In this document: positions 25,601-28,600 of the stretch, piece after piece
Layout: the number at the start of each line of letters is the position of its first letter
Position numbering within the stretch: position 1 is the stretch's first letter
Made by a program: the position numbers and the translations under genes
From: Lamellibrachia satsuma
Taxonomy: Eukaryota > Annelida > Polychaeta > Sabellida > Siboglinidae
Reading direction: 5' to 3'
DNA length: 64,000 bases
Assembly (NCBI GenBank): GCA_033239005.1
Contig: BSQZ01000036.1
Span: 1,280,001 to 1,344,000 of the forward strand
Notes under the pieces: model-generated
What the model was told of the DNA's origin: nothing
Seen by the model: only the letters and a program-made list of their open reading frames with translations
Database searches by the model: none

Positions 25601-28600
25601 CTACAGCCCTATGGTTTGACATGTGTGGTTATATTGACCTGTGGATTAATTGGTAAAATTCGGGTTGAATTAAAAAATATGAGTGCAACATGCCTTGGTT
25701 GATCTGAGATAGAAAGCCCCATAACACTTTTACTCATGCACAGGATGGAAAAAGCCGTAGAAAAATGCAATGTTTGTTATTCAGCTTTTTGTGTTGCTTT
25801 CTAGTTTGAGTCATAGATTTGAAGGTGGCAATTAACACACATATGTATTAATTAGGGGAATGTATTAAGTTTTTGTGTGCACTGTGTCTATATATTTCAC
25901 GCTGGTACAGGAGTGTGTGCAGTTGGTATGTACACATTGTGTATGTGTTTCAGGCTGGTATGAGGGATGTATGTACAGTTGGTATGTACACATTGTGTAA
26001 AATGTTTCAGGCTGGTACAAGGGAGTATATACAGTTGGTGTACACATTGTGTATGTGTTTCAGGCTGGTATGAGGAAAGTGTGTACAGTTGGTACATTGT
26101 GTATGTGTTTCAGGCTGGTACAGGGGAGTGTGTACAGTTGGTGTGAACACATTGTGTATGTGTTTCAGGCTGGTATGTGGCAGTGTACAGTTGGTGTGTA
26201 CACAGTGTGTATGTGTTTCAGGTTGGTATGGAGGAGTGCATACATATTGTGTATATGCATTGTATATGTATTTCAGACTGGTACAGGGGAGTGTGTGCAG
26301 TTGGGTGTACACATTGTGTATGTTTCAGGCTGGTATGGGGGAGTGTGTACATATTGTGTGTATTAATTGTGTATGTATTTCACGCTAGTATGGGAGTAAG
26401 ACAGTTGGTGTGTACACATTTTATATGTATTTCAGGCTGGTACGAAAGTGTGTAAGTTGGTGAATGCACATTGTATATGTGTTTCAGGCTGGTACAGGGG
26501 GAGTGTGTACAGTTGGTGTGTACACATTGTGTATGTGTTTCAGGCTGGTATGGGGGGAGTGTGTACAGTTGGTGTGTACACATTGTGTATGTGTTTCAGG
26601 CTGGTACGGGGGGAGTGTGCGGGAACAAGCTCCCACCAGTCATGTACAGTTCTGGGCCCTTCCTCACAGTGTACTTCAGGTGAGTTTCTCAGTAAGAATC
26701 TGTTTCTACCTTTTGACTAAATGGCTTGATGCTTTTAAGGTGCTTTTAGTATGTGATAAGATTTTTCTAAATTTCTGTGCCAGTTACCATGTTGTATCAT
26801 GGATTAGTAAGATTGAAAATATTAAGGTAATTTTTTTAACTTCACTGTATGTAAAATAGGTCAAAGTATGATATGAATAACACAATGATACACGAAAAAG
26901 TACATGACAATCAGCTAACCTTGTGAAGGTCACTATGGTCAGAAGTGAGAAGTAAATATTAATTTGATGTTACAAACGTACATGTCTTGTGTGAGGTATG
27001 TCATTAACAATGAACAATGCAGTTGATATACACTGTACTATGCAGCAATGAACCATCGAACAACAAACCATGTCACCATTGTCTTTAAGTTTAAAAGAAC
27101 AGTCTGATTAGACATGACAGCATGCTGCTGGAATACAAATAACGGACAGATGCCGTTGTCGGGACTTAATAAATATCTGTTCAATCTGACGTGCTTGTTG
27201 GACTTCCAATGATTGGAGAATCTTGACATTTGATACAGCATCTGTTAGATGTAACAGGTCTAGGTCAGGGCTCGAGGTCAGGGCTGCCAAGGGAGACTGT
27301 GGGAATTATATAGTGGTGACAGCACTGGGCAGTGGTCCTTTGATACCAGAATGCTGCAGGTCACATTTAACTGCATTTGATGGATACTATGCCACTAATT
27401 AGATCATGACCTGTAATTTTGTTGGCCAGACTATTGTTTCGAAACCCATTTGTGGCCCAGTAATTTGGGTAACTGTTTCATCTGTGTTTCGTCATTGTTC
27501 ATGCAGACTCTTATAACAAGTGTTGCTTAAGCAGCCAGGTGTAAATGCTGGGATATCCTTGTTTCATGCCCAACTTTATAATCTATTTTAACTTTGGCGG
27601 AGGTCAAAAGGGATGGAAAGAGACATCCAGACAAAGGAAAGAAGAATGGAGTGATAAAATCGGGTGCTGGGCTAAAGAAATTTTATAGAAACTATCATCC
27701 TCTGTCATCAACACCAAGCGGCCTTCACACATCAGAGAGAACATTATCTACGGCTGTTGCTGTTGTTGGTGATTATGTTGCTGTAATACTATAATCCCTC
27801 TTAGACGGAGACAGCTTACATTCTCTCCTCGAACTTTACATATGCTGTATTAAATGAACGAAGCCGTGCAGCTCGATCATGAGCTAGGGACTGCGTAACA
27901 GGCAGTGATAGATGTGAGGTCCCTATCAAGTGTGACAGAGGGTGTGGGGCGAACAGAGACAATATGGCTCGGACACGAACATTTTCTTCCAGCAGTGGCG
28001 CATCAGCAGCTTTGTGGTGTTCCCATCCAGGTCATCGTGTAGCCGGATCACTGTCTATGTCATCACGTAGACATGATGTGATGATGATAAAAAAGGAGAA
28101 CAGTTCATGATTGTCAAGAAATAGTACACTTGCCTGTCAAATTGGAAGGGTTTGGTGGCATGGATAATTATGCACGGGTATATTGATATTTATGCACGGG
28201 CATCAACGCATTGCATTCACAGTCTACTCACTAATATATTACCAGGGAGACCACCCGTTAATCACAGGTACAGAACTGGACAACCTAACTCCAGTCTGCC
28301 CGTGCAGATACATTTGCAAGTAAATTAATCTTAACTGTTTTTGGCTGGTGCTGCTATTTAAGATTCATGCCACAGTGGTTGGAGACACTGCCAGACTGTT
28401 AAATGGAGAGGTACCACTTGGTAAGCATCAGTACGGATTCGTCAGAATGCTAGTAGGGAGCTTCTATGCTGAGCTGATTACATCACTCGTCACTCTGGCC
28501 ACAGTAATACTCGAAGCTGTCATCTTCTTTGTGTGCTGGAATCCCCCAGCACGTTCTGCTTGCTATTCTAACAATTGCAACTTCATTTCGCAGCATGGCT

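Follow-up and report, generated by a model that had tools for sequence, protein, structure and literature searches.

The window, by which we mean the whole 64,000-nucleotide stretch analysed here (Lamellibrachia satsuma, assembly GCA_033239005.1, contig BSQZ01000036.1, positions 1,280,001 to 1,344,000 of the forward strand), contains a 56-bp minisatellite lying across the intron 2/exon 3 junction of a gene whose exons 2-5 read in frame into a CUB + LDLa protein. Each unit joins the end of intron 2, with its acceptor, to the start of exon 3, and we consider it likely that the array is a boundary-spanning 'mirage' minisatellite (a name used for such arrays in amphioxus), near-neutral and tolerated since splicing takes the innermost copy. 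In the course of events that we propose, a duplication across the junction would have been followed by tandem multiplication, leaving in the intron 13 partial copies (intron end, acceptor and exon start) with the intact exon last. The spliceosome very probably picks the innermost junction, 26599/26600, which runs on into the unique exon body and lies closest to the exon's own donor, as exon definition would have it, perhaps assisted by RNA folding. The upstream copies would be mostly ignored; when occasionally used, they would introduce a stop codon into the mRNA, presumably destining it for decay. The array would be one among many in a minisatellite-rich genome, in which several other acceptors and donors have apparently been copied likewise.

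Anatomy and origin of the array

Tandem Repeats Finder (TRF), run on the window, placed the minisatellite at 25874-26619 with a period of 56, 13.8 copies and a score of 801, whereas 200 dinucleotide shuffles gave a top score of 82 at periods of at least 20. A unit consists of about 36 nt of the intron 2 end and the first 20 nt of exon 3. Splitting at TTTCA[GC] yields 14 junction units of 50-57 nt, 13 upstream copies and the true one at 26599/26600, with pairwise divergence of 2-38%; TTTCAG itself occurs 12 times where 0.11 are expected. The AG is kept, as CAG, in 11 of the 13 upstream copies, the other two (25900 and 26383) reading CAC. Hence, both the array of acceptor and exon-start units described from the bare sequence in an earlier note and its count of eleven upstream units with an AG acceptor are borne out. 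The array ends abruptly within exon 3, where the nearest copies go on TACAG... and the exon goes on CGGGAACAAG. A 181-base query (40 nt of unit plus exon 3) matched the 735-Mb, 279-contig assembly only within the array, at six places including the true site, in a search that passes over simple repeats and very common words. The features of the locus, all on the forward strand, are as follows.

16805..17046, exon 2 (CUB start), ending in phase 0 at GTG/gtaagt
25874..26619, 56-bp minisatellite, 13.8 copies, across the intron 2/exon 3 junction
25901..26599, thirteen upstream units (cutting at TTTCA[GC])
After 25900 (CAC), 25953, 26010, 26063, 26113, 26168, 26221, 26276, 26328, 26383 (CAC), 26435, 26487 and 26543, junction copies
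26508..26563, exon-proximal decoy copy, junction 26543/26544, equal to the true copy at 55 of 56 aligned positions
26564..26619, true unit copy, junction 26599/26600
26600..26679, exon 3, 80 nt, first 20 nt within the repeat, followed by gtgagt
31097..31158, exon 4 (CUB end), 62 nt, gtaagt donor
49616..49762, exon 5 (LDLa repeat), ending at 49761 or 49762

The gene model comprises exons 2-5 and leaves out exon 1 and any exon beyond the fifth; exons 4 and 5 were located with a Patella CUB-LDLa protein (P0028) as guide, which itself scores 24.0 bits for Pfam CUB (cut-off 21.4, passed) and 23.7 bits for LDLa (cut-off 24.1, just missed). The closest protein, a hypothetical protein of Ridgeia piscesae, is 94% identical over 106 residues and has an identical exon 2/exon 3 join, which points to a siboglinid tubeworm as the probable host. 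The true junction is thus backed at the protein level by the reading frame shared with exons 2, 4 and 5, by the Ridgeia join and by the Patella protein, and the frame of exons 2-5 and the Ridgeia join together support the view of the earlier note that the last copy is a real exon, probably spliced at 26600. That note had also regarded the encoded residues AGTGGVCG as conserved in CUB domains, which applies fully to Ridgeia and only partly to molluscs (AGGNAGLCG, ANGNTGLCG). Other comparisons gave less: exons 2 and 3 alone reach 17.3 bits for Pfam CUB, under the cut-off of 21.4, and the PDB comparison of these exons, made with a wrong join in the query, was weak (top match neuropilin-2, E 0.014, amid antibody matches). 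A search for longer homologues returned one protein at E<=1e-5 among nine candidates. Array-bearing relatives, sought with the open reading frame at 26456-26680, were not found, the Ridgeia exon alone being returned (one protein of one candidate), and no relative of exon 2 was found on viral contigs.

The direction of copying can be read from CpG decay. The true exon start, GCTGGTACGGGG, contains TACG; at this site the 13 copies read TACA in five cases, TATG in seven and TACG in one (tallied by eye), TACA and TATG being the single-step CpG-decay products of TACG. The observed/expected ratio of CpG is 0.13 in the array, which holds three CpGs, and 0.49 in the window, where that of TpG is 1.34. 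By mean identity with the other units, junction units 13 and 14, the latter being the true one, rank jointly first (0.819 each). Since the true site keeps TACG and most copies carry its decay products, and since units 13 and 14 are central, the exon 3 start is the origin of the repeat copies, in line with the earlier note. The exon-proximal copy looks the youngest, units 13 and 14 (98% identical) forming the sole clearly recent pair in the array. Isolation by distance along the array was absent (r=0.03, Mantel P=0.57); therefore stepwise growth is unreadable from the unit order. The converse history, in which a pre-existing repeat lent some of its sequence to the exon, is hardly credible, and the same holds for an assembly artefact: the only point for either is the shared sequence, whereas exon 3 residues are common to Ridgeia and partly to molluscs, most copies show CpG-decayed states, and units differing by 2-38% are unlike the product of a duplicated assembly.

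Decoy acceptors and the choice of the innermost copy

The nearest decoy acceptors lie 56 and 112 nt upstream of the true one, neither distance being divisible by three, as noted earlier, and both lead to a stop codon. In fact, none of the 11 AG decoys is productive within exons 2-5, the stop falling within the array for eight of them, in exon 4 for that at -112 and in exon 5 for those at -56 and -164; skipping of exon 3 (80 nt) likewise shifts the frame. Retention of AG in 11 of the 13 upstream copies is in keeping with the neutral expectation (per-site difference 0.138, P(>=11)=0.31), which fits decay of the decoy AGs at the neutral rate. This neutral-looking decay, the lack of array enrichment at exon edges (see below) and the amphioxus precedent, in which splicing is reported as undisturbed (PMC3087553), speak for a tolerated splicing hazard, one of two readings offered in the earlier note, which we would keep subject to the contrary points gathered below.

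The other reading, an acceptor ladder in which exon 3 inclusion would be tuned by copy number, either through the multiplied acceptors or through binding to the UG-rich repeat, seems to us quite unlikely. Its main support is an analogy in human ABCA7, where the length of an intronic variable number tandem repeat (VNTR), whose unit begins with a splice donor, is reported to correlate with exon 19 skipping (PMC5954066). Moreover, the array is very UG-rich, with 35 occurrences of TGTGT where 12 stretches of the same length (11 from intron 2, one from intron 3) average 1.75, and the most conserved part of the unit is the junction block. Against a ladder, use of any AG decoy and skipping of exon 3 would all end in a frame break or a stop, the decoy AGs appear to decay neutrally, and the offset of the nearest copy is divisible by three in 4 of 12 arrays, which is the chance share.

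How, then, would the innermost acceptor be chosen? The -56 acceptor (26543) is the same as the true one for at least 40 nt upstream and in 19 of the 20 nt of exon start. Because the two sites are near-identical, their surroundings, chiefly the exon body, must discriminate between them; the true copy is clearly set apart by its continuity with the remainder of exon 3 and by its position nearest to the donor gtgagt. Hence, we infer that exon definition is the main account of acceptor choice.

Several observations weigh against a near-neutral array with reliable choice of the innermost copy. The likeness of the 26599 and 26543 acceptors leaves 26599 as the presumed site of splicing. The true acceptor looks weak, with pyrimidines at 9 of the 16 positions from -20 to -5 as against 11, 12 and 12 for exons 2, 4 and 5, and the YTNAY motif is absent from the last 50 nt before it (exon 5 also has none), so that the choice is unexplained by the true site's own sequence. 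Neutrality does not predict that the junction block should be the best-conserved part of the unit, as it is (lowest 14-column window, permutation P=0.009, in a unit alignment that is anchored at the junction and whose outer parts are prone to slippage). The TACA and TATG states may be partly common by descent among the copies rather than independent decays. Finally, the predicted accessibility of TTTCAG is greater at the true site than at the -56 decoy in all three fold settings (0.46 vs 0.28, 0.083 vs 0.017 and 0.186 vs 0.055); therefore, position may not be the sole cue, and folding may help.

A stronger version of this last point, in which folding of self-complementary units would hide the decoys and expose the true acceptor, or would bring near a branch site upstream of the array, is in our estimate unlikely. 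The predicted fold of the array with exon 3 surpasses those of all 20 shuffles (z -5.2), the true TTTCAG ranks second, third and first among the 14 in the three fold settings, and YTNAY is lacking between 26425 and 26599, with two occurrences just upstream of the array. Yet palindrome-containing repeats fold well automatically, predictions for 800-1100 nt are unreliable, and the AG dinucleotide taken alone is not special in the global fold (0.20 unpaired at the true site, 0.00-0.77 in the copies). We therefore keep to exon definition of the innermost copy, with folding as a possible aid.

Boundary arrays on other exons

Two samples of exons from the same genome were examined for similar arrays, whose recurrence, like their membership of a described kind, had escaped the earlier note. 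Of 139 kinase hits, 114 were under 420 bp long, and one in three of these, taken at regular intervals, formed a sample of 38 exons; the CUB sample was drawn from 150 listed hits (150 of 682 candidates scored) and covers the 40 stretches with at least two hits each, that is, 95 hits, many of them tandem paralogues. Arrays cross an exon edge in 6 of the 38 kinase exons, which may be a lower bound as exons can outrun their Pfam match, and in 5 of the 95 CUB hits, acceptors and donors both being affected. Of the 17 CUB array rows lying no more than 120 nt from a hit, L014, L045, L046, L009, L044 and one of two at L007 were viewed by eye, and L008, L022, L024, L029, L031, L038 and the other L007 row were judged from coordinates; the kinase loci viewed were L052, L059, L067, L061, L062, L078, L053, L069 and L071, the rest being judged from coordinates. 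Arrays beside an exon (L053, L069, L009) were excluded from the counts. Some CUB hits are alike in spacing and scores in G000:C187 and C11:7.45-7.68 Mb, which points to C187 as another haplotype of that part of C11. The boundary arrays are listed below; those at L052, L059, L067 and L078 reach the end of the fetched stretch, so that their copy numbers are lower bounds.

L045, CUB: 43 bp, 10.3 copies, acceptor TTTTGCAG, copies sharing just 2 nt with the exon
L046, CUB: 25 bp, 15 copies, acceptor; degradation of the units makes any decoy count unreliable
L046, CUB: 45 bp, 2.3 copies, acceptor
L014, CUB: 110 bp, 4 copies, and 2 copies at the next CUB exon, donor TTCAG/GTAAAC
L052, kinase: 57 bp, at least 6.4 copies, acceptor, exon part encoding DLKL
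L059, kinase: 63 bp, at least 8.4 copies, acceptor
L067, kinase: 68 bp, at least 5.7 copies, acceptor
L061, kinase: 32 bp, 6.2 copies, acceptor, few units with AG
L062, kinase: 105 bp, 1.8 copies, acceptor, and 35 bp, 9.1 copies, donor
L078, kinase: 41 bp, at least 9.7 copies, donor

Translated from the innermost junction onward, the exons give peptides with gap-free alignments to PKN2 (72 residues), CDK12 (62), CHK1 (62) and STK24 (75), and the array-bearing kinases include CDK12-, CHK1-, PKN- (L052) and STK24-like ones; the subfamily of the kinases at L059 and L062 is less certain. The listed kinase matches at L061 and L067 contain stops, probably from the match running on into array or intron. 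At L062 (G000:C16, 206-395 and 500-818), where both exon ends bear arrays, the acceptor is copied once and eight GT decoys follow the donor. The two donor arrays of L014 look like paralogous copies of one event, and their 4 and 2 copies of one 110-bp unit are a suggestive hint of length instability.

We next asked how such arrays relate to exon edges in general, taken as the ends of Pfam matches. No enrichment was seen at kinase edges, 7 of 76 lying in arrays against 12.6 expected (P(<=7)=0.052, arrays making up 16.5% of flank bases), nor at CUB edges, where 3 of 190 did so against 13.9 expected, the L014 donor arrays falling just past the Pfam edge and outside these three. In the window, arrays of at least 5 copies and period of at least 10 cover 7.4%, and the chance that at least one of the gene's eight known junctions would fall in an array is 0.40 (uniform placement, coverage computed without this array). 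Because edges are not enriched and a junction hit is this probable, boundary arrays are about what a minisatellite-rich genome yields, perhaps thinned by selection. That boundary arrays are not just a cross-section of the usual intron minisatellites but arise by a directed process, for instance one tied to splicing or transcription, appears very improbable: such arrays are frequent (6 of the 38 kinase exons) and occur at acceptors and donors, once at both ends of one exon, but they are scarcer on edges than in flanks in both samples, a deficit that may be overstated as Pfam match ends may fall inside exons.

Two further arrays stand out in the window. A 29-bp array of 27 copies at 31416-32202, just inside intron 4 and purely intronic, contains an acceptor-like TCTGTTAG 23 times, with pyrimidines at 12 of 16 positions in the first copy; a 30-bp array of 33 copies at 43064-44053 contains an open frame of 311 codons.

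The nearest copy lies 56 nt away in the array studied here and 57, 63, 68, 32, 105, 43, 45, 35, 41, 110 and 110 nt away in the others of the set of 12, which omits the first L046 array and in which the L061 copy at 32 has lost its AG. Four of these offsets are in frame; the extensions are stop-free at L052 and L059 and contain stops at L062 and L046. At PKN-like L052 (G000:C1, 561-925, exon on the minus strand), use of the -57 decoy acceptor would add 19 residues in frame, stop-free, at the DLKL motif. A broader possibility is that decoy ladders sit on a sizeable share of exons, so that copy-number change would provide standing heritable splicing variation across hundreds of genes; we regard this as rather unlikely, and L052 and L059 are the loci at which splicing to the nearest decoy would insert in-frame sequence free of stops.

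What is new here is that boundary arrays occur on several exons of one genome, at acceptors and donors, core kinases included. The choice between near-identical tandem splice sites is usually studied with built constructs. The true and -56 acceptors, together with the other arrays with their donors and varied spacings, offer natural experiments on splice-site choice: if the innermost copy is always used, exon definition would be demonstrated in nature at many loci, and if not, length-variable isoforms would follow. Boundary minisatellites have been described before in recent human paralogues and in amphioxus; our sample suggests that they are common in an annelid, a point of relevance to gene prediction and to models of how introns are gained.

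Elsewhere in the window, broken open frames at 24137-25481, 33933-36549 and 6251-9033 resemble what we take to be reverse transcriptases of retrotransposons without long terminal repeats (non-LTR), and minus-strand frames at 488-772 and 2534-2749 presumably resemble exons of gamma-SNAP. The same 120-residue open frame occurs at 52604-52963 and 57386-57745, 4.8 kb apart, as a local duplication. Scans of the window for Rfam families (gathering threshold) and tRNA genes gave no matches.

Relation to known systems

No report of mirages in annelids was found in the open-licence literature, which is weak evidence of absence, and the mirage papers found concern amphioxus. There, they are described in Adh3, the globin genes BflGb6 and BflGb9, PGBD5 and troponin C, as minisatellite-like repeats spanning the boundary at either exon end, with AG or GT in many, not all, units (PMC3087553, PMC3902484). 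According to the same accounts, reverse transcription PCR suggests that splicing is undisturbed, and BflGb6 exists in haplotypes of 6 and of 3 units (PMC3087553, PMC3902484). The tubeworm array resembles these in its boundary-spanning unit (56 bp, about 36 nt of intron and 20 nt of exon, 13.8 copies), in the presence of AG in many but not all units (11 of 13), and in the intact exon at one end of the cluster (exons 2-5 in frame, Ridgeia join identical). It differs in its annelid host, in which 6 of the 38 sampled kinase exons bear such arrays, and, compared with BflGb6 (6 and 3 units, 81-100% identity), its units are more numerous and more diverged.

Among human genes, the ABCA7 intron 18 VNTR has a 25-bp unit that opens with the two bases of a splice donor, and cryptic-donor retention of one unit is reported to cause a frameshift (PMC5954066). 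That system concerns the donor side and has a demonstrated correlation of length with skipping, whereas the tubeworm array, known from sequence, concerns the acceptor side and includes 20 nt of exon. In the IFI6 (6-16) minisatellite, 12-bp units reportedly each carry a splice donor, several of which are said to be used in transcripts; each unit thus holds a splice site in both cases, donors in IFI6 and acceptors at the tubeworm locus. Internal tandem repeats at exon-intron boundaries are also described in human segmental-duplication genes (PMC2812944) and are similarly of minisatellite size, but those are linked, with support from transcripts, to alternative splicing and novel introns of recent paralogues, whereas in the tubeworm conserved exons are affected and the intact exon is kept. 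In an annelid, earthworm metallothionein is reported to have intronic repeats and exon-4 duplications that are absent from the final transcript (PMC12783039). The locus is of the kind described as mirages, for which the literature searched shows it to represent a new phylum, and it is most likely tolerated rather than functional.
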